The translations under genes and the position numbers were made by a program. Shown here in pieces: positions 6,847 to 22,636 of a DNA stretch of 22,636 bases. A model generated the notes under the pieces. That model was given only the letters and a program-made list of their open reading frames with translations, was not told where the DNA came from and did no database searches. The stretch is from a virus. How positions within the stretch are numbered: the first letter of the stretch is position 1; every line of letters starts with the position of its first letter. Location: positions 1 through 22,636 of IMG/VR virus record IMGVR_UViG_3300010354_000721. One strand, written 5' to 3'.

Positions 6847-7014
6847 CTAGTCTTCGCGGTTGCGCAGTGGATACGTGGCTATCCAAGCGACTAACGTTCC
6901 GATAGTTGCCCAACCAACTACGTCCTTTGCGCTTCCGTCAAGCACAATCCAGGCTATAAACATACCCAGTAGTGTCCAAAGTTGGTCAAGCATATCTTTG
7001 AAGAAGTTAATCAT
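6847..7014 (-). CDS. Small two-helix membrane protein, possible holin or antiholin
   Basis: A 55-residue protein, MINFFKDMLDQLWTLLGMFI at the start. Hydrophobic segments lie at about residues 12-25 and 33-49 (VVGWATIGTLVAWIATYPL), followed by a charged RNRED tail. The ATG overlaps the stop of the 895-residue protein by four bases (ATGA), so it is translationally coupled to it. The pattern G-W-x-x-I-G-T-L-V-x-W-x-A-T-Y-P-L-R resembles small membrane proteins in the lysis cassettes of mycobacteriophages. A holin or antiholin role is likely but not certain. Confidence 0.72.
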   Translation of the reverse strand: MINFFKDMLDQLWTLLGMFIAWIVLDGSAKDVVGWATIGTLVAWIATYPLRNRED

Positions 7015-9698
7015 TTGCGGCGTCTCCTAACTGCCTTCATATCTCCAGTTGGCGCTCCGCCACCTGAACTGCTGCCTCCAGTTGACCCTCCAGTTGTTGC
7101 TGCGGCAACTGCAGCAGCGTTGATAGCAGCACCTGCAGCGACTACAGTTGCTACAACCATCTTTGTTGCTTCTTCTCGTTCTTCAGGCGACATATCTGCA
7201 CCGATACTTCCCAGTGCAAGAAGAACTTGACCTGGGTCATTAAATAATTCGCCAAGTAATTCAGATGGATTTTCAATTAGTTCAAGAGCGGCTGCAACTT
7301 CTGCAGTAATGATAACCTCATTACCGTTCTCATCGGTTCTAACATCGACTGGTGTTTCTGGAGGCAGGTCTTCATAGGTGATGCCTGCTTCTTTTATAGC
7401 CTCGCTAGATATAGCCTCACCTGGTGCTACACTTGAAATCAAAGCAGTAACTACAACGGCCTTTTCTTCGGCTGTTAACTTGCCATCAGAAAGTGCGTTG
7501 GAGATGACCGTTTCTGGTGTAGGCTCTGGCTTACTTGGTTCAACGATAGGAGTATCTTGTGATTCTTCAGACTGATTTTCTTGCTCTTGGTTGTCTGGTT
7601 CTGGCTCTTCTGATTCTTCAGAAGGGGGTTCGTCCACAGGGTCGTCGGTTTCGTCAGTTTCTTCGGGCGATGTGGGTTGTGACTCTTCTTCTGTGGGGGT
7701 CGGCTCTGGCTCTGTATCTGAATCAGTAGATGAATCCGTATCTTCTGACGGATTATCGGAAACTGGAGGATTGTCTTCAGGATTCTCTGTCTCGTCTGGA
7801 GTGTCTGAAGAGTTGTCATCTGGAGAGTCAGCAGGTTCCTCTTCCGGATTTTCTGTTTCCTCTTCAGAAGGTTCTTCTGGATTCTCTGGAGCAGGTTCAG
7901 TTGGCTCTGTCTCAGGTTCAGAAGGTTTCTCTGGCTGAGGTTGAGTCTCAGGTTGAGGTGTTGGAGCCGTGGGCTCAGAAGGAGTAGGTTGAGGTGAAGG
8001 TTCGGGTGTGGGTTGCGGTTGTGGTTGCGGCTCTGGTTGGGGTTGTGGCTGTGGCTGTGGCTGCGGTTCGGGAGTTGGCTCAGGCGTTGGAGTCGGAGTG
8101 GGATTGGGCTGAGGAAGAGGAGTAGGTTCTGATGTCGGAGTTGGTTCTGGGGTTGGTGTTGGGGTTGGGGTTGGCTCTGGTGTTGGGGTTGGCGTTGGTT
8201 CTGGCTGTGGTGTGGGCGTGGGAGTCGGAGTGGGCTCAGGTGATGGCGCGGGCTGAACAGGAGTTTGAAGAGCGGTCACAGCAATAGCAACAGTTGCTGT
8301 AGCCGTATCTGCTAGTGCATTTGCAGTAGCAATTGCAGTCGCTGCTGCAGTTTGGGCTGCAGCGACAGTTTCACTTGTAACGTTTGTCATTGGTTGCACA
8401 GGCTGTCCTGCGGTCTCGCGCACGCCCGTGCGTGGGCCATTCCAAAGAATTGTATTACCTGACATTTTTCCAATACCAGTCCACTCACCTGTTTCTGGAT
8501 TAACTGTCATCTTCCAATTGACATTAGTTAAAGGACCATTTGGGTCAGAAAATCTATGAAGTTTCCAGTCAACTTCAAGTGTTGTTTCTGTTGTAGTTAC
8601 AACAGTTGAGGCTCCTGTACCTGCACTTTGATAGTCGCTGGCAAATACAGAGATGTTTGGAGTATTTGGGAAATCCCACCAATTAAAATCTCCAGTACCA
8701 AATGTAATTGTGGCTTTAGATGTTACATAGATTTGACTATTTGGCCCCTGACCGTTGTACAGGATGTCACCCATCTTTATATCAAAAGGCGTTTGAATTT
8801 TTGTAGCAGCGTCATACATTGTAGGAAGAACTGTCGTCGTGACAGTTGGAGTATCTACAGGGGCTGGGGCTACATATCCATCTGTTGTATAAACTTTTGT
8901 ATTTTGAGGAGCAGAAGACAAATCATTGGCTGTGTTTTGTGCAGCGATGGCCGTAACAGTCGCAGACTCTGCTACAGATATAGCAGTTTGAGCCTCTGTT
9001 ATTTGAGTAGCAGCAGCCGCTTGTTGTGTGACAGTTGACGATTCAATTGCAGTATTTAGCGTTACAGTTGCCGTCTCAATTTTTGCTTGTACGGAGGTGA
9101 CTGTAGGTGTTTCAGGTGTGGTGGCAGTGGGCGTTTGTGGTGTATTGCTTGGGGACGGGGATTGTGTTGGGCTGGATATGGGCGTCGGAGCCACTGAAGC
9201 GGAAGGTGAAGGTTCTGCAGACGGTGATACAGACGGACTCGGCTCAGAAGATGGAGCGGGTGTTGATGTTGGAGCAACAGTTGCGGTTGCACCGTCAGAA
9301 ACTGTCGGAGTTGGAGACGGAGTTGAAGTGGAAGACTGCGAGGGTTCTGGCGTTGGAGTCGGACTTGGAGAGGGTTCAGTCGAAGTACTTGTGGAAGGAC
9401 TAGGAGAAGGTTCGACTGTCGGCGTAGGAGTTGGTGAAGGTTCTACTGTTGGAGAAGGAGTTGGTGATGGAGCAGGTGCTGTGGTTTCTGTTTGGCTTGG
9501 GGTTGGGGTTGGCGTTGGATTTTGTGTTGGTGAAGGTGATGCTTCGCTCGGTGATGGAGAGACTGTCGGTTCTGGAGACGGCTCAGTTGCGCGAACAGGA
9601 CTCAATACTAGAAGCGCATAAATAAATAACGCTCCTGCTAAGAAAGATATTCGACTAAAGAAACCAGATTGTGCTGCGGATGAACGCAGTAATTTCAA
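7011..9698 (-). CDS. Large secreted, membrane-anchored Pro/Thr/Ser-rich surface protein
   Basis: An 895-residue protein. Residues 1-37 form a signal peptide (basic n-region, core FLAGALFIYALLVLSPVRA). Then come a Pro/Ser/Thr stretch (about 38-195), an Ala/Thr helical stretch (about 200-265), and a beta-rich domain (about 275-440) containing DFNWWDFPNTPNISVFASDY and WKMTVNPETGEWTGIGKMSG. A second Pro/Thr/Gln stretch, an acidic Glu/Pro/Ser region and a helical C-terminal domain follow. A hydrophobic segment (VVATVVAAGAAINAAAVAAA), a Gly/Ser linker and a basic end (RRRRK) close it. The layout implies an extracellular protein tethered by its C-terminus. The start is TTG with GAGGGG four bases upstream. 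Wall-spanning lysis factor, superinfection-exclusion factor or virion decoration are possibilities; none is demonstrated. No LPxTG sortase motif is present. Confidence 0.85.
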   Translation of the reverse strand: MKLLRSSAAQSGFFSRISFLAGALFIYALLVLSPVRATEPSPEPTVSPSPSEASPSPTQNPTPTPTPSQTETTAPAPSPTPSPTVEPSPTPTPTVEPSPSPSTSTSTEPSPSPTPTPEPSQSSTSTPSPTPTVSDGATATVAPTSTPAPSSEPSPSVSPSAEPSPSASVAPTPISSPTQSPSPSNTPQTPTATTPETPTVTSVQAKIETATVTLNTAIESSTVTQQAAAATQITEAQTAISVAESATVTAIAAQNTANDLSSAPQNTKVYTTDGYVAPAPVDTPTVTTTVLPTMYDAATKIQTPFDIKMGDILYNGQGPNSQIYVTSKATITFGTGDFNWWDFPNTPNISVFASDYQSAGTGASTVVTTTETTLEVDWKLHRFSDPNGPLTNVNWKMTVNPETGEWTGIGKMSGNTILWNGPRTGVRETAGQPVQPMTNVTSETVAAAQTAAATAIATANALADTATATVAIAVTALQTPVQPAPSPEPTPTPTPTPQPEPTPTPTPEPTPTPTPTPEPTPTSEPTPLPQPNPTPTPTPEPTPEPQPQPQPQPQPEPQPQPQPTPEPSPQPTPSEPTAPTPQPETQPQPEKPSEPETEPTEPAPENPEEPSEEETENPEEEPADSPDDNSSDTPDETENPEDNPPVSDNPSEDTDSSTDSDTEPEPTPTEEESQPTSPEETDETDDPVDEPPSEESEEPEPDNQEQENQSEESQDTPIVEPSKPEPTPETVISNALSDGKLTAEEKAVVVTALISSVAPGEAISSEAIKEAGITYEDLPPETPVDVRTDENGNEVIITAEVAAALELIENPSELLGELFNDPGQVLLALGSIGADMSPEEREEATKMVVATVVAAGAAINAAAVAAATTGGSTGGSSSGGGAPTGDMKAVRRRRK

Positions 9699-12575: not shown

Positions 12576-13070
12576 TTATTTGATTTCTATAGTCCGTGGC
12601 TTCTTATGCTCAGGTATTTCTCGCTCAAGACGTATGGACAGAATTCCATCAGTCATATTGGCTTCGACAACCTTTACATCGTCTCCAAGAATGAAACTCT
12701 TCTCGAAAGTTCTAGCGGCAATACCTTTGTGTAGGTAGTCGGCTTCATCTCCATCTTTAGAGCCCTTTACAACTAGTTGGTTCTCTGTATATGTGAGTTC
12801 AATGTCTTCCTTGGAAAAGCCAGCAGCAGCAATCTCGATGATGTAAGTCTCATCGTCATCAACCTTAACAATGTTGTATGGGGGATATGTGTGCTTTGGC
12901 GCATTTCGCATTTCTTCAAGAAGACCAAATTGGCGTTCAAGGCCGATGGTCATTGAATTAAGTATTGGGCTTATTAAATCGAATGGATTTACAGGATTTT
13001 CTTTTTGTTCAAAGTATTTGCCGTAATCTGGATATTGAGTTTTCTTTTTTGCAACTTCATAGGGTGTCAT
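12576..13070 (-). CDS. Small heat-shock protein (Hsp20/alpha-crystallin)
   Basis: A 164-residue chaperone of the IbpA/Hsp20 type. The alpha-crystallin domain covers about residues 63-155: PPYNIVKVDDDETYIIEIAA, GFSKEDIELTYTENQLVVKG, IAARTFEKSFILGDDVKV, then ANMTDGILSIRLEREIPE, which includes the G-I-L beta9 motif. Residues 158-163 (PRTIEI) stand at the place of the C-terminal I-x-I motif. sHsps hold unfolding proteins for refolding and form oligomers in the cytoplasm. Similar genes occur in cyanophages and other aquatic phages, where they may assist virion assembly. AAGGAGAG precedes the ATG. It lies directly downstream of the proteasome-like gene, a protein-quality-control pair. Confidence 0.92.
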   Translation of the reverse strand: MTPYEVAKKKTQYPDYGKYFEQKENPVNPFDLISPILNSMTIGLERQFGLLEEMRNAPKHTYPPYNIVKVDDDETYIIEIAAAGFSKEDIELTYTENQLVVKGSKDGDEADYLHKGIAARTFEKSFILGDDVKVVEANMTDGILSIRLEREIPEHKKPRTIEIK

Positions 13071-13158
13071 AATCTCTCCTTAGACGAGACTAGGTAATGG
13101 CTCCCATTTGGCGAGCCGCATATGTAACATTAGCAGACTGTGATTTATTTCACAAAAG

Positions 13159-13710
13159 TTACTTCTTGTACTGGATTTCCTTTTGAAACGGCCCAGAAGT
13201 GTTGACGTCTATCTTTTCAGCAACGGCCATAGCCTTCTCAGGCTTAACACCGCCATAGAGAGCGCCTAGTGCATATGGAGAGCCAGAGCCAACGCCATAG
13301 AAGCCAGCATCTGACATACAAACAGACATATCATCTGCAATATCAAAGATTTGACCATTAGCGGCAATGAGAAGATTGAATCTGGTTTCACCTGACTTGC
13401 CATCAGATTTGCCTTCATTGAAGTCGTAGCCGTTATCTTCAAGGCATTTGCGTAGCGATGGCATTAACTTAGCGATAACGAAATGGTATGTATCTTTTCT
13501 GTCCTTGGCAGACATAGCAGGTGGACTCCATAAGTGCTGCGCAATATCGCAAGGAGCAACTTCGCCAGAACCTGCAACAAGGTATTCGCCTACCTTGCTA
13601 ATCTTTTTCATATTGGGGTGCTTATAACGACGACCACCATCTAATGTAACTTGATTATCTGCCATAAATAGGCAGTGGTCGTCGTATTGGACGCCAATGA
13701 TTGTTGTCAT
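13159..13710 (-). CDS. HslV/proteasome-beta-like Ntn hydrolase
   Basis: A 183-residue protein. After Met removal the N-terminus would be TTIIGVQYDDHCLFMADNQV, like HslV and proteasome beta subunits: Thr1 as nucleophile, Asp17 exactly at the expected spacing (MADNQVT), and Lys35 in NMKKISKVGEYLV as the equivalent of Lys33. LVAGSG and YGVGSGSPYALGALYGG match conserved family loops. ATG 13710 has GGGGAG upstream and gives the Thr directly after Met; the frame is open to 13755, but that start would bury it. HslV works with HslU, and 20S subunits with a proteasomal ATPase; no such ATPase is in this window, so a host partner or independent action is possible. Prohead-protease-like or host-proteolysis roles are inference. 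Confidence 0.82.
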   Translation of the reverse strand: MTTIIGVQYDDHCLFMADNQVTLDGGRRYKHPNMKKISKVGEYLVAGSGEVAPCDIAQHLWSPPAMSAKDRKDTYHFVIAKLMPSLRKCLEDNGYDFNEGKSDGKSGETRFNLLIAANGQIFDIADDMSVCMSDAGFYGVGSGSPYALGALYGGVKPEKAMAVAEKIDVNTSGPFQKEIQYKK

Positions 13711-13768
13711 GTTCTCCCCTTCGCCTCCAGGACCCAAGGATACCAAAGTGGTCAATCAGGGGTTGAGC

Positions 13769-13912
13769 CTAAAGAGACGTCCGATTTGCGCCCTTTGAAT
13801 GCTTTTTCTTCCTTGTATAGACCTTCTTAGAGGGAATGGGGGTAGCAGCGTTAGAGCGCCTCAACTCCTGAACCTTCTTGACCCTGGCAGGATTAGGACT
13901 CTTCTTTGTCAC
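13769..13912 (-). CDS. Small Lys/Arg-rich protein
   Basis: A 47-residue frame from GTG 13912, MTKKSPNPARVKKVQELRRS at the start, with SKKVYTRKKKHSKGAN near the end. GGAGA lies about eight bases upstream of the GTG. It overlaps the end of the ADP-ribosyltransferase-like gene by 20 bases and ends before the HslV-like gene. The strongly basic composition is typical of tiny phage nucleic-acid- or ribosome-binding proteins. No family recognised. Confidence 0.6.
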   Translation of the reverse strand: MTKKSPNPARVKKVQELRRSNAATPIPSKKVYTRKKKHSKGANRTSL

Positions 13913-14324
13913 GTTTTCGTCTCCAAGCGCTCAGAGCGTTCTCTAGAACCTTGTTATCGGTAACTATCTGTGGATGCGCTCTCATTGACTCGATGCCCTC
14001 TACTTTAAATCCCTTTTTGGATACGTAGATATTAGGAATGTCTTTAGCAAGACGTAGGTTCTTTTTAACTGGGTCAGTTCTCCATGGCTCTGTCTCTGAG
14101 TGCATCTCTTTTTCATCCACAGGACTAACTCTGTAGGTATATGTAAATAAAGACTTTGGGTCTCTAGTGTAATCTCGTTCTGCATCTAATGTCGAGTAGT
14201 TATCGGCATATGCTTTGTCTTTTGTGGCATGTGCGTGGTCCATCTCCATAGGCTTAATAATATCGCCCTTGTTAAATGGATGGCTTGTTCCATGAAATAG
14301 CGGCCCAGATAAAGGTGCACTCAT
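13893..14324 (-). CDS. Arr-like ADP-ribosyltransferase-fold protein
   Basis: A 143-residue protein starting MSAPLSGPLFHGTSHPFNKG. LFHGT is the NAD-binding H-G-T motif of Arr/rifampin-ADP-ribosyltransferase-like folds. It is followed by HAHATKDKAYADNYS, matching the A-T-x-x-x-x-A-Y segment, a strand FTYTYRVSPVD (position of [IV]-Y-x-V-x-P), and a terminal SKKGFKVEGI as in the Arr S-x-x-x-[FL]-x-[IV]-x-G end. Arr enzymes ADP-ribosylate rifampin; relatives in phages may modify host proteins. It shares its first 13 residues, all but one base of spacing and the fold with the 14793-15212 product, a clear duplication. ATG 14324 overlaps the previous TGA (ATGA). Confidence 0.65.
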   Translation of the reverse strand: MSAPLSGPLFHGTSHPFNKGDIIKPMEMDHAHATKDKAYADNYSTLDAERDYTRDPKSLFTYTYRVSPVDEKEMHSETEPWRTDPVKKNLRLAKDIPNIYVSKKGFKVEGIESMRAHPQIVTDNKVLENALSAWRRKRDKEES

Positions 14325-14518
14325 ATACTCCACCAGCCTCGTATTGTGCCGCCCTCAACTGGACACTTGTATACCAGATGACGTCCCTGCTCGTAATGCT
14401 CATTAAACAACTTGTGATGAAGTTCTGTATCTGGCTCGTGCGTATCGCGCCCGCACGCGGGACAGATTGCAGCACCAACATACTCATACACGTGACGACA
14501 GGTCATAGTTCTGTCCAT
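14321..14518 (-). CDS. Small Cys/His zinc-binding protein
   Basis: A 65-residue protein starting MDRTMTCRHVYEYVGAAICP. CPACGRDTHEPD gives C-x2-C-x3-H with preceding C-R-H, and a later KCP, consistent with a zinc ribbon of the type recurring in actinobacteriophages. The frame is open to 14560, but ATG 14518 reduces the overlap with the upstream gene to 16 bases and starts at the conserved-looking part. It stands inside the enzyme cassette between two ADP-ribosyltransferase-like genes. Function unknown. Confidence 0.68.
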   Translation of the reverse strand: MDRTMTCRHVYEYVGAAICPACGRDTHEPDTELHHKLFNEHYEQGRHLVYKCPVEGGTIRGWWSI

Positions 14519-14796
14519 GCTCTTAAGACTTGCACGTGACGCGGCTCGACACCATACCAAGACTCATCTTCGTGAACATCTGGGTTAGCAGACATATTCG
14601 TAAAGTGTGCTCTAGGGTCGACACTTACTTCAACAACAGAACGCCCGAATGGTTTTGCGCCCCCGTGAAGTTTTGTCGATAGGAATACCTGGTCTTCACT
14701 CTTTGATGGCTTTAACTTCTTGGACTCTACTATCTTGCCAGCAGTATTAGGGTCAGTGCGATGATAGAGAACGAACTGTTTGCCAAGGTTACTCAT
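14503..14796 (-). CDS. Possible ADP-ribosyltransferase-like protein with NLGKQF tag
   Basis: A 97-residue protein starting MSNLGKQFVLYHRTDPNTAG. The order Y-H-R-T, a helix with KIVESKKLKPS, then VFLSTK and VVEVSVDP resembles compact ADP-ribosyltransferase folds (H-x-T, S-T, and a VxVDP strand), though less clearly than its neighbours. The N-terminal NLGKQF is shared with other proteins of this cassette. It is coupled to its neighbour by ATGA at 14793-14796. A toxin-like or host-modifying role is inference. Confidence 0.6.
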   Translation of the reverse strand: MSNLGKQFVLYHRTDPNTAGKIVESKKLKPSKSEDQVFLSTKLHGGAKPFGRSVVEVSVDPRAHFTNMSANPDVHEDESWYGVEPRHVQVLRAWTEL

Positions 14797-15212
14797 TCGA
14801 AACGTTCCCTGCCACGTTCTACATAACTTTCTTTCTTTGGGTCGAAAGTCTTAAATCGCTTCTTGATAACTTCACGGTCCTCTTGTGGGCCGATAGCAGA
14901 TGCCACTTGGCGCTTTACTCTAAAGCCAGTTGTTGAATAGTATGCATCTGGGTCTGGATGTGCTTCGTTGTGATGAACGTTCTTGGAGTCGATTGGTTCT
15001 ACTTCATAGATGTTGCCATGATGAACTGGCCACTCGCCACCAGACTTAGCACCAAAGCCAGTGCGTACACGTTCTTCGGCATGCTTGACTGCATAATCGA
15101 GTCGTCCTGTTGCCCATGCAACATCACCCTTGTCACGTGGCTTGATTTCTCCACCTTCTGGCAGAGTCTCGATAGTGCCGTGAAATAACGGTCCTGATAA
15201 TGGTGCGCTCAC
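14793..15212 (-). CDS. Arr-like ADP-ribosyltransferase-fold protein (second copy)
   Basis: A 139-residue protein starting MSAPLSGPLFHGTIETLPEG. H11-G-T, AWATGRLDYAVKHAEE (Y40), NIYEVEPID (E72) and YYSTTGFRVKRQV follow the Arr order: NAD-binding His, central aromatic helix, Y-x-V-E-P strand and closing S-x-x-x-F-x-V segment. The C-terminus adds a basic helical extension (REVIKKRFKTFDPKKESYVE). The first 13 residues are identical to those of the 13893-14324 product, so the two arose by duplication or share a leader. Coupled by ATGA to both neighbours. The target is unknown. Confidence 0.7.
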   Translation of the reverse strand: MSAPLSGPLFHGTIETLPEGGEIKPRDKGDVAWATGRLDYAVKHAEERVRTGFGAKSGGEWPVHHGNIYEVEPIDSKNVHHNEAHPDPDAYYSTTGFRVKRQVASAIGPQEDREVIKKRFKTFDPKKESYVERGRERFE

Positions 15213-15529
15213 TTATGTTCACCTATAATTCTAAATCCATGAGGAGATGTGTAGAAAGTCTCATCATCTAGATTTCCCGACTCTGCTTTGTAATAACTTG
15301 TTAATGGCTCTACTTTGTAGACTGTTACATCTCCAAGTTTGCCTTGTTTTGGATATTTTGATTCGCCAAAGAAATATGCTTGTTCTGGGTCACTAGTAGC
15401 AAATGCTTTTGCGTGTGGACCTTCTCCTTGTGTTATTGCAGGAAGGATTATGTTGCCTTTTATCTCTGCACGAGTTCCGTGATACATAGGTGGAAATTGA
15501 CGTTTTGAAAGATTATCTGATGCACTCAT
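15209..15529 (-). CDS. Arr-like ADP-ribosyltransferase-fold protein with NLSKRQF tag
   Basis: A 106-residue protein and the clearest Arr-like member: MYHGTRAEIKGNIILPA (H17), AFATSDPEQAYFFGES (Y52), VTVYKVEPLTSY (E74) and ETFYTSPHGFRIIGE. This closely follows Arr, which has F-Y-H-G-T-x-A-x-L-x-x-G-D-x-I, a [YF]-x-T-x-x-x-x-x-A segment, Y-x-V-E-P and the S-x-x-P-L-R-V-x-G-E end. It is preceded by MSASDNLSKRQF, whose first eight residues differ by only one from those of the next upstream protein. Arr inactivates rifamycins, but in a phage operon a host-protein or nucleic-acid target is as likely. Start and stop overlap its neighbours by four bases each. Confidence 0.75.
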   Translation of the reverse strand: MSASDNLSKRQFPPMYHGTRAEIKGNIILPAITQGEGPHAKAFATSDPEQAYFFGESKYPKQGKLGDVTVYKVEPLTSYYKAESGNLDDETFYTSPHGFRIIGEHK

Positions 15530-18974: not shown

Positions 18975-19250
18975 GAAAATGCCCCCAATACTCAATTGTG
19001 AAGTACCAAAATAGGAAATCAATCGATAAATCATAGCGGTCAATGGATACTCCAAAGGCTACCCGCTTAAAATTCCAACCAAAATACAGCCAAACCCTAC
19101 CAACCCGCTTCTCTATGCTCATATAGAGAGCCTATCACGGCTACTGCCTTGGCCCCACATCGTCAACCATGTTTCTCACCTGGCTGTTCCTCTCGCGTAT
19201 CACGCTTAATGGTGGGGGGGTCATGTGTTAGTGATACACAACAACACTCA

Positions 19251-19273
19251 CCACCTGACTACTAATCAGGTGG
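19251..19273. repeat. Perfect inverted repeat upstream of the leftward block
   Basis: CCACCTGA and TCAGGTGG form a perfect eight-base-pair stem with a seven-base loop. Outside it, ACAACAA on the left and TTGTTGT on the right can extend the pairing after a bulge of about six bases. It could be an operator, or a terminator facing right, since the downstream side is T-rich (TTGTTGTTC), although the run is interrupted. Confidence 0.6.
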
Positions 19274-19292
19274 TTGTTGTTCAACTCATGCG

Positions 19293-19421
19293 TTGTTATC
19301 AGGTGTAACAAATAACTTGGTGACAATCTTGGTGACAACACTTCGGCTACTGTCGCAATAACTGAATGGCTTGTGCGCCTACTACCAAGCCACCATGTCA
19401 TCTAGCGAATTGTTATCAGGT
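19293..19421. repeat. Direct repeats TTGTTATCAGGT and CTTGGTGACAA
   Basis: TTGTTATCAGGT occurs at 19293-19304 and 19410-19421. Between them CTTGGTGACAA occurs twice, at 19316-19326 and 19328-19338, one 12-base step apart. Repeats spaced by about one helical turn suggest side-by-side protein binding, for example a repressor or replication initiator. Confidence 0.6.
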
Positions 19422-19497
19422 AATTTAGTTATGTTGTCATCTGTCTATCGAGTTAGTTATGTATCTATTGTTAATTGTTTCAATTATCTTTATTACA

Positions 19498-19683
19498 TGA
19501 CTAACTCAGTTGTTCTCCTTGTAATGACTAAGTAACTAACTGCGTAGGTCTGGGGCTATCTGAGTTACTTAGTAACTATCTTTACCGGATTTCCTTCAGG
19601 TGACAGTTAGTTACTTATTTATGTGGCTCTTGGGTCTATTACAAACTTATTTATTTGTATTTGATAACTGACTAACTCAGTTG
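19498..19683. repeat. AT-rich iterated repeat block
   Basis: TGACTAACTCAGTTG is present twice identically, at 19498-19512 and 19669-19683. Between them ACTAAGTAACT (19527-19537) and AGTTACTTAGT (19563-19573) form a perfect 11-base inverted repeat. Further AGTTACT-type words occur near 19589-19595 and 19683-19700. The block is AT-rich and lies near the centre of the non-coding region. It resembles an iteron or operator array. Confidence 0.6.
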
Positions 19684-19836
19684 AGTTACTGAGTTACTTA
19701 TCTTGGTATTTATCTATTGTTTATTATCTATCTATTACATTCTTTGTATTAGTCATTACTGAAAAGAAAAACTCTTTGGCGCGATTAGTTATGTGGGGGC
19801 GCACGCTCAAAGTGGGAACTAACTTCTACGGCTAGA

Positions 19837-19882
19837 CCCCAAGTTACTTGGGGCTCTTGGGGCGGATAGTTGAACTTTCAAC
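19837..19882. repeat. Two adjacent palindromes in a GC-richer segment
   Basis: CCCCAAGTTACTTGGGG (19837-19853) is a perfect 17-base palindrome around one central T. GTTGAACTTTCAAC (19869-19882) has two six-base arms, GTTGAA and TTCAAC, with a two-base spacer. CACGCTCA at 19802-19809 and TGAGCGTG at 19896-19903 are inverted around both. The nested arrangement fits an operator cluster or a structured RNA leader. Confidence 0.55.
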
Positions 19883-19958
19883 CAAGTTACCCCCCTGAGC
19901 GTGGGAAACGCCTATAAACAGGCGTGTATAACTGAGTCGGTCAGTTGTGGCATAATTG

Positions 19959-19985
19959 GACTCGCACACGCGACCAACGCGAGTC
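19959..19985. repeat. Inverted repeat GACTCGC/GCGAGTC
   Basis: GACTCGC (19959-19965) and GCGAGTC (19979-19985) are perfectly complementary with a 13-base loop. It lies in the GC-richer centre-right part of the non-coding region. No U-tract follows on either strand. Confidence 0.5.
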
Positions 19986-20162
19986 GGAAAAGAAGCGCCA
20001 ATCCGAGCGATTCCGATTCGCAAGTAGTCAGAAGTGAAAAACGCAAAACGCACTAGCACTAGCGGTGAAGTTCGTTGAACATAAGTTCAGCACCTAACTT
20101 GGTGGCGAATGTGGCGAAATAACTAGAGGCGTTGAATTAAATAGTGACTAAGAAACTACGAA

Positions 20163-20583
20163 ACAAATTATTTGTGACATGTGTATTGCTAACACATTCG
20201 ATTAAAAACACTTACCAATTAAGTAAGTTCGATAAAACAAATAACGCGTTTTAATTCGTGAGCAAACGGAGTGGCGAGGACTTATCTCATTCGCAATTAG
20301 ATAACGAGCGTTCGACAAGTTACAGCGAACAACAGATACGAAATTATCTGTGAATAGTAGTAGGGCTTAGACGAGTTACGGAAAGTTGTATAACTCAAAT
20401 CGTCATTACTTATGGATTGCTAACAACAGTTAGTGCCGACAGTAACCAATCTGTTCCAAGAACAATGACAGTAATGACGATACGAGTTATTCATACTTAG
20501 TAATTTCGCTTATGTGTTTAAGAACTTTGTGTTCTTACTGTGATTGTCACCGATACCGATTCTGCGAATGAGATTCGGTGACA
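20163..20583. repeat. Array of short perfect inverted repeats
   Basis: Going rightwards: ACAAAT-T-ATTTGT (20163-20175); ATGTGT/ACACAT (20179-20197); ACTTAC/GTAAGT (20210-20228); TTATCT/AGATAA (20282-20304); ACAGATA/TATCTGT (20332-20351); long arms at 20390-20410 and 20470-20490 (19 of 21 paired); TAAGAAC/GTTCTTA (20519-20537); TGTCACCGA/TCGGTGACA (20545-20583). The last lies 32 bases before the first rightward start codon. Also ATTGCTAACA is repeated at 20185-20194 and 20416-20425. None is followed by a U-tract. Confidence 0.6.
20286..20313. repeat. 28-base imperfect repeat shared with the AAA+ gene
   Basis: The 28 bases match 21814-21841 at 25 positions. CTCATTCGCAATTAG is identical in both, followed after five partly different bases by the identical GAGCGTTC. 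In the AAA+ gene it encodes part of HSQLVDERS. Its first ten bases also occur inverted at 20563-20572 (TGCGAATGAG). Confidence 0.7.
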
Positions 20584-20614
20584 GTTGCGGTAGCAACATA
20601 CGGAAAGAGGCAAC

Positions 20615-20794
20615 ATGGCAACAAATAACAACACATACACAATCGGTGATTTATTCACCACTACTAAATCTCAGGTGACAGGAATTATTGAAGAGATTGT
20701 TCCTGTATCTCCTGACTTGGTAAAGGTTCGTATAAATGTAGAAGGCGAATCTCGCTGGACTACATGGACTCCTTATCGAGATACAACTAAATAA
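20615..20794 (+). CDS. Small beta-rich protein, first gene of the rightward block
   Basis: A 59-residue protein: MATNNNTYTIGDLFTTTKSQ, VTGIIEEIVPVSPDLVKVRI, then GESRWTTWTPYRD. The pattern T-G-x-I-E-E-I-V-P ... V-x-V-R-[IL] ... R-W-T-T is familiar from small actinobacteriophage proteins and suggests a compact KOW- or SH3-like barrel, but no function is known to me. AAAGAGG lies upstream of the ATG. It begins 32 bases after the strong hairpin at 20545-20583. Confidence 0.75.
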   Translation: MATNNNTYTIGDLFTTTKSQVTGIIEEIVPVSPDLVKVRINVEGESRWTTWTPYRDTTK

Positions 20795-21350: not shown

Positions 21351-22636
21351 ATGACAACAATGTATGGCGCACTACTCGTATCACAACCTGCTGATGTAAC
21401 ACTTACACGACAGGTATTTATCGCAAACATAGACGGAAGAGTTATTACTCGTTCTCGTTTAACTGACGGAAAGCAAGGAAGAGCAAACGCTTGGACTAGC
21501 GAACCATTCACTTATGAAAGTGGCGAACCACTAATCGGTGAGCCTGTCGCAATTCCTGTATCTCAGAATGACATTAACGATTTCAACGACACAGGATTTC
21601 CACGCGTTCTGATTCAGAAACTAATTCGCAAACACACGCTCGGTGACCAAACACTCGGTGATGAAGCGATTGTTGTTGCTGATTCAATCTTTGAGGCGGT
21701 TGATAACAACCCTGCTTCTCTTGCTCAGTATTACACCGACAATCGTGGGCAACGCTCTACAAAGTCTGACTCACCGATTCGCGTTGAATACGCGGAACAA
21801 TCTGTATCAGTAACTCATTCGCAATTAGTTGATGAGCGTTCTCTCTTCATTCCAAAGATTGAAGAGTTCGCACACTACATTCCACGAAAGTTCGCTGGTG
21901 ATGTTGATGAACTAACTATGTATCAGTTCGCATTACAGAACAAATTAAATGTTCTTCTGTATGGTGAAGCGGGAACAGGTAAGACTTCCTCTTCTATGTG
22001 GATTGCTTCATTACTTGGGCTTCCATTCTTTGCGATTCCTTCTAACTCTGCTCTTGATTACACACAAATTGTTGGCGGTTATGTTCCAAACGCTAATGGT
22101 TCGTTGTCATGGACAGACGGGGCGGTTACTCGCTTAGTTCGTAATGGTGGCGTTCTTCTTATCGGTGAAGTAAATACACTCGCTAAGAATGTTCAACAAT
22201 TCCTAATGCCATTACTCGATTACAGGCGCTCAATTACTGTAATGGAGAATGGTAATGAAGTAATCAAAGCCCATGACAACTTGTTAATTGTTGCTGACAT
22301 GAATCCAAATTATCGTGGCACGCAATTACTTAATGAAGCATGGAAAGACCGCTTCGAGATTAAGTTGAACTACAACTACGACAGAAGTATCGAGAGCAAG
22401 ATTCTTAAATCAGATTCGTTGCTCGAACTTGCTTATGGCATGAGGTCACGCTCTCGTGGTGCTGATGAAGTTGCTCATACTGATAGCAACACAATCTTCG
22501 ATACACCTGTTTCAACTCGTATTCTCAAAACCTTTGAGAAGTTGGCAACAGGTCTTAACTTTGATTTCGCTTGTGAAGTCTTTGTTAATAACTTCGACCA
22601 AAACGAACGCCCTGCTGTTCGTCTATTGCTTGAAGC
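21351..22636 (+). CDS. MoxR/CobS-like AAA+ ATPase (3' end outside the window)
   Basis: At least 428 residues from ATG 21351. An N-terminal region of about 195 residues without recognised motif precedes the ATPase. Walker A is YGEAGTGKTSSS (about 203-214). The Walker B position reads GGVLLIGEVNTL, with Gly where Asp is usual. Sensor 1 is LLIVADMNPNYRGTQLL, and NEAWKDRFEIKL carries the conserved Arg of the D-R-F motif. This order fits the MoxR/CobS/NorQ group, which remodels partner proteins, often with a VWA-domain protein encoded next door. In phages such pairs are common in the early region. The gene runs off the window, so the C-terminal lid and the partner cannot be seen. AGAGAAAG is a weak ribosome binding site. 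Confidence 0.85.
   Translation, partial: MTTMYGALLVSQPADVTLTRQVFIANIDGRVITRSRLTDGKQGRANAWTSEPFTYESGEPLIGEPVAIPVSQNDINDFNDTGFPRVLIQKLIRKHTLGDQTLGDEAIVVADSIFEAVDNNPASLAQYYTDNRGQRSTKSDSPIRVEYAEQSVSVTHSQLVDERSLFIPKIEEFAHYIPRKFAGDVDELTMYQFALQNKLNVLLYGEAGTGKTSSSMWIASLLGLPFFAIPSNSALDYTQIVGGYVPNANGSLSWTDGAVTRLVRNGGVLLIGEVNTLAKNVQQFLMPLLDYRRSITVMENGNEVIKAHDNLLIVADMNPNYRGTQLLNEAWKDRFEIKLNYNYDRSIESKILKSDSLLELAYGMRSRSRGADEVAHTDSNTIFDTPVSTRILKTFEKLATGLNFDFACEVFVNNFDQNERPAVRLLLE

Follow-up and report, generated by a model that had tools for sequence, protein, structure and literature searches.

The window, i.e. the whole stretch of 22,636 nt that was analysed, is a 22.6 kb phage contig with an actinophage-like genome. 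A non-coding region of 1.56 kb (19056-20614) separates divergent gene sets, with leftward genes on its left and rightward genes on its right. Among the leftward genes is a terminase with 54% identity to Streptomyces phage BRock. The host is probably actinobacterial, as judged from the cultured relatives, which are phages of Streptomyces, Gordonia and Brevibacterium. In one relative (L090, 12111-12440) a WhiB-like cysteine pattern was recognised by eye in an encoded protein, which fits such a host. A DNA similarity search against named phages gave no match. tRNA genes were found neither in the window nor in two near-complete relatives (95-97 kb).

Elsewhere in the window, an HSP20-like chaperone gene adjoins a proteasome-subunit-like gene (12576-13755, Pfam). 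On the minus strand, paralogous genes in tandem (13893-15529) have a common N-terminal YHGT/FHGT motif and resemble the ADP-ribosyltransferase fold by eye only. A protein of 895 aa (7011-9698) is very abundant in Pro/Ser/Thr/Glu repeats and belongs to no PHROG family.

The features of the non-coding region and of the rightward operon are summarised in Table 1. Apart from the hairpins treated below, a second conserved non-coding block is present in nearly all relatives. It contains two GGCTACTG sites about 206-215 bp apart, a perfect hairpin CACCTGACTACTAATCAGGTG (19250-19274) and tandem TTGGTGACAA repeats. Fold energies of both strands are similar (19138-19430), and the block could be an operator, an origin or the leader of the leftward genes. 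To its right, about ten GAGTTACT-like sites are located on both strands within 250 bp; the entire window has 36 of these sites versus 20 expected. They possibly form an operator cluster before the putative leader promoter. In some relatives HNH endonuclease-like genes are inserted between the left block and the hairpin region.

Table 1. Features of the non-coding region, its surroundings and its relatives. Positions refer to the window unless a locus is named.
Feature	Position	Strand	Remarks
Second conserved non-coding block (left block)	19135-19430
Cluster of GAGTTACT-like sites	19450-19700	both
Conserved promoter-like block TAACTGAGTCGGTCAGTTGTGGCATAATTGG	19929-19959	+	kept in 6/6 close relatives, recognisable in L115
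Predicted leader RNA	19962-20614	+	about 640-650 nt, up to first start codon; MFE z-score -4.3
Perfect inverted repeats	20163-20175, 20179-20197, 20210-20228, 20233-20253, 20282-20304, 20332-20351, 20373-20396, 20519-20537
Four short perfect hairpins	20163-20253	+	beyond chance as part of the set; segment swapped out in relatives
Kink-turn-like hairpin module	20274-20309	+	GC-GAG-GA-C / helix UUAUCU-AGAUAA / C-GA-GC
Hairpin with GAAA (GNRA) tetraloop	20332-20351	+	24/29 relatives, stem varies
Conserved 3' domain, covariance model R1	20350-20601	+	36 loci; 39/53 pairs compensatory
Long variable-sequence helix P1 (outer, middle, inner), carries core	20373-20506	+	helices 1-4; 79-95% of cells paired
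Core hairpin P2 (GCUAAC aaca GUUAG-u-GC)	20419-20436	+	helix 5; both-side changes in 4/5 pairs
Octaloop hairpin GACAG-UAACCAAU-CUG-U-UC	20438-20456	+	97.2% of cells paired; score 0.540 vs 0.226 shuffled
Terminal hairpin P3, closed by UAUGUG / ACAUA	20512-20600	+	helices 6 and 7, 97.7% and 98.7% paired; adjoins ribosome binding site
First gene behind the RNA	20615-20794	+	59 aa, no known family; start codon 11 nt past RNA domain
MoxR-like AAA ATPase	21351-22634	+	Pfam AAA_5 3e-25; extends beyond window edge; VWA protein next in relatives
HNH endonuclease-like genes	L098 4003-4374, L099 3041-3460 (read as L011 and L012)	-	by eye
Non-coding stretch >1 kb before AAA/VWA operon, cultured Gordonia phages	L139 2941-3994; L140 3493-4654

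Number of hairpins and fold energy

Exactly eight non-overlapping perfect inverted repeats (arms of at least 6, loop of at most 20) are found in 20163-20583. In 300 dinucleotide shuffles of this segment the number was 2.24 ± 1.37, and none of the shuffles reached eight. Likewise, 50 bases are paired, compared to 14.4 ± 8.8 in the shuffles (0/300 as high). Only 1.9% of the 421-nt windows over the whole sequence reach eight hairpins, the top ones being neighbours within the same non-coding region. Moreover there are two longer stems, one of 12 bp (20399-20410/20470-20481) within arms of 24 nt that are 88% complementary, and one of 9 bp (20545-20553/20575-20583). The row of eight hairpins described in the initial annotation is hence confirmed, also under the shuffling named there as a possible refutation, and its remark that they differ in sequence and do not represent one repeated operator is right. 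Short palindromes are commoner in AT-rich non-coding DNA, which would speak for inverted repeats due to chance or composition. With no shuffle being as rich and with strong covariation (see below), this explanation is already refuted and retains practically no probability.

The predicted leader folds well below the energy of shuffled sequences (Table 1), as does 19740-20614 (z -5.5). Scanning in windows of 200 nt locates the energy signal in the 3' domain and additionally around 19450 and 19800. The segment 20150-20330, which contains half of the short hairpins, is unremarkable in such windows. For the 3' domain, z-scores of -6.3, -5.8, -4.5, -4.8 and -3.4 were obtained for five relatives including the window (20350-20601, -6.3). 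The four short hairpins are in a segment (20163-20253) that is replaced in relatives, so they may not be conserved; any function of theirs would be putative.

Conservation and structure of the 3' domain

Relatives were collected from IMG/VR using the AAA protein as anchor, yielding 20 and then 48 loci. Upstream of the operon, blocks are common to the window and its relatives even at ~60% identity of the AAA protein. A covariance model of the 3' domain at about 20350-20601, termed R1, was built from 11 sequences. The 36 matching loci take in the window itself and two identical loci of one phage group; 34 or more score 111-236 bits and two are partial matches at 56 bits (L105, L107). They represent every phage with an AAA protein at least 60% identical, except L093, L116 and L125, the latter ending inside the AAA gene. 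Ten genome-scale records (66-97 kb) contain exactly one forward copy each, and weaker matches on the opposite strand of these records correspond to the same terminal hairpin read backwards. R1 does not match AAA relatives of 42-48% identity, nor GMA6, ChisanaKitsune, Cantare or BRock. A host copy was sought in bacterial genomes with a 16-base core pattern; the 54 matches are no more than chance for a 16-mer in 257 Gb. Taken together, dozens of viruses of bacteria, all uncultured, carry this RNA ahead of one and the same gene cluster.

Covariation in related regions, suggested by the initial annotation as a further check, was evaluated for 53 pairs in 29 distinct sequences. 92.9% of the cells are paired, and most pairs are changed on both sides (Table 1). 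The covariation score is 0.536 versus 0.218 for shuffled and at most 0.112 for slid alignments, whereby the alignment of the 29 sequences was fitted to the structure, which favours the score. RNAalifold on a plain MAFFT alignment of 11 sequences yielded 19 compensatory pairs out of 40. Compensatory changes exceeding shuffled and slid controls are the general mark of a conserved structured RNA. On the + strand of 20350-20601, secondary structure has been kept by selection while the sequence changed among 29 distinct phage sequences. A shape kept in this way argues for a working RNA. G-U and U-G pairs are frequent (GU:29 in helix 5; UG:21 and GU:11 in helix 7), hence the RNA is on the + strand.

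These pairs also bear on the single-strand replication origin considered by the initial annotation and, more generally, on replication initiating at the hairpin-rich DNA. The hairpins are located where gene direction diverges, and the cumulative GC skew turns nearby in two relatives. However, this turn coincides with the switch in gene direction, so it may reflect transcription as well as replication, while the G-U pairs that were kept matter for an RNA but not for a DNA hairpin. We thus regard an origin at the hairpins as very improbable; an origin in the left block (19138-19430) instead of the hairpin region is conceivable.

From 5' to 3', the elements are the promoter-like block, a variable 5' half, four hairpins, a kink-turn-like module, the GNRA hairpin, P1, P3, the ribosome binding site and the start codon at 20615. 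The hairpin row would then constitute the 3' two thirds of a folded RNA of roughly 640 bases. The kink-turn-like module recurs with different helix sequence in eight leaders, four of which have two in tandem. Its pattern is GC-NNN-RA-C, helix, C-GA-GC; in several copies the bulged strand reads AA where others have GA, and the C stem comprises only 2-3 bp. P1 shows changes on both sides in most pairs. Its cap consists of AUGGA, hairpin P2 and the octaloop hairpin, the latter being outside the structure of the R1 model. The octaloop is near-invariant, UA[AU][CU]CAAU (UAWYCAAU), on a varying stem (GACAG/CUGUUC, GGUGG/CCAACC, GACGG/CCGUUC). A pseudoknot of the octaloop was considered and rejected, since in most sequences there was no partner beyond those of shuffled loops. 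In several distant relatives the strand closing the terminal hairpin can pair downstream instead (GAAUACAU...AUGUAUUC).

The hairpins initially described are therefore real but not all independent: by covariation, the arms at 20373-20396 form part of a long helix whose closing strand is 20470-20506. The conserved part is not built as eight consecutive hairpins; it comprises a long branched helix with capped core and, besides, a closed terminal hairpin. The coordinates given initially are too narrow, since conserved structure reaches 20601 and a start of the RNA near 19962 is probable.

Predicted transcript and possible functions

The promoter-like block contains an extended -10 element TGGCATAAT at 19948-19956 without a consensus -35, and a sigma-70 consensus scan found no promoter at 19929-19959. 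We assume a promoter near 19930-19957 with transcription starting at about 19962. In the two closest groups, 10-14 nt lie between the end of the RNA and the first start codon. As this leaves no room for another promoter, cotranscription with the operon is suggested, and the messenger of the first gene would include the RNA, barring a transcription start within the latter. In more distant groups 37-92 nt separate the RNA from the first plausible gene, with a possible extra hairpin; a processed 3' end of the RNA is hence possible. At least four unrelated kinds of gene come first behind the RNA. Regulation of a single gene is thus unlikely, and a role at the level of the operon more likely.

A riboswitch-like element for translational control of the first gene would suit the closest groups, in which a few nt lie between the closing helix UAUGUG/ACAUA and the ribosome binding site. 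The diversity of first genes, the longer gaps elsewhere and a size far beyond that of usual riboswitches make it improbable.

We tentatively favour, at close to an even chance, a large structured operon leader. Transcribed rightward from the above promoter, this RNA of about 640 nt would form the 5' leader of the operon starting with the 59-aa gene and the AAA/VWA pair. Cotranscribed with it, the leader would act in cis on the transcribing polymerase or on the operon mRNA, by antitermination-like control or by protection of the message. Action at operon level in cis seems most likely because the RNA stays in place although the first gene after it varies. A single copy per genome at the head of the same operon, the conserved promoter-like block and a similar-sized non-coding stretch of low fold energy before the AAA/VWA operon of Gordonia phage GMA6 (see below) are in line with a leader, whereas the missing consensus -35 speaks against it. 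Two roles offered by the initial annotation, structured non-coding RNA and long leader, are thereby supported together, by covariation and by the position directly before the start codon in the closest groups.

To our knowledge, 600 nt with kink-turns and elaborate motifs far exceed the needs of known cis-acting antiterminator RNAs. This speaks for an RNA with its own function in trans, cut from the operon transcript or accumulating apart from it, and acting alone or as an RNP like GOLLD, ROOL and OLE. Besides size and complexity, the GNRA hairpin and the tandem kink-turn-like modules, typical of packed RNAs, would fit, as would the conserved 3' domain with variable 5' half known from GOLLD (PMC12286853). 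On the other hand, the RNA matches neither GOLLD, ROOL, OLE nor any other Rfam family and runs straight into a gene start. Moreover the two near-complete relatives are free of tRNA genes, whereas GOLLD and ROOL, phage RNAs of similar size, are often found near tRNA islands (PMC12286853). We give such a trans-acting RNA a substantial minority chance.

Comparison with known RNAs and Gordonia phages

The window, its relatives and the Gordonia phages were searched against Rfam at gathering as well as relaxed thresholds, which yielded no family and one meaningless miRNA match (E 2.7). The Rfam models of GOLLD and ROOL did not match at gathering threshold or relaxed E-value. In open-access papers we found neither this RNA nor the Gordonia counterpart described. 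Judged by these searches, the RNA is of a kind not yet catalogued.

The cultured Gordonia phages GMA6 and ChisanaKitsune likewise have divergent genes and the AAA/VWA pair, preceded here by a gap of 1.05-1.16 kb; in most records of these phages and their relatives 620-820 nt are without listed genes, and two of the records have short genes annotated in the gap. Ten other records contain the ChisanaKitsune gap at 84-100% identity. GMA6 has a promoter-like TTGACA/CATAAT. The fold z-score is -3.7 for GMA6 and only -1.6 for ChisanaKitsune, and 13 of 222 pairs are compensatory; the structure is only partly supported. ChisanaKitsune apparently contains two copies of a GUACUGCGA...CACGCGAGCUA module. 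The genomic place is the same, the size similar and the fold energy low in GMA6, but the sequence is unrelated and R1 does not match. The stretch is thus likely a counterpart, not a proven homologue.

Going further, the RNA may represent a new class of modular giant phage RNA (about 550 nt or longer) with kink-turns and near-invariant octaloop, serving as an RNA machine at the operon head and with a sequence-unrelated functional counterpart in cultured Gordonia phages. This proposal is possible but somewhat doubtful. Large structured RNAs of unknown role are few, GOLLD, ROOL and OLE being the best known, and each new covarying class is a defined object of study. In this case the genomic position is fixed, the near-invariant motifs can be mutated, and cultured phages have a similar-sized stretch at the same place. 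The role of a giant phage RNA thereby becomes directly testable.

Kink-turns of the Kt-7 type consist of a C stem (GC), a 3-nt bulge, tandem sheared G-A pairs and an NC stem (GC-NNN-GA-C / C-GA-GC). The module described here resembles them in its sequence pattern, differing by AA in place of GA in some copies. The put RNAs of HK022 and EAR are RNA-only processive antiterminators, which let polymerase pass terminators; they are promoter-proximal and have tens of nt to about 120 nt. They are far shorter and no common sequence was seen, but the RNA here is likewise placed at the operon head whichever gene comes next, with the promoter being predicted in our case. ROOL differs by its tRNA island and its own Rfam family, but is likewise a large phage RNA made up of many helices. 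GOLLD, an RNA-only multimeric cage, differs in the same two respects, and the RNA here is located directly before the ribosome binding site of an operon. Like the present RNA, GOLLD is a phage RNA of 500-1000 nt, and its conserved 3' region and variable 5' region (PMC12286853) were found here as well.
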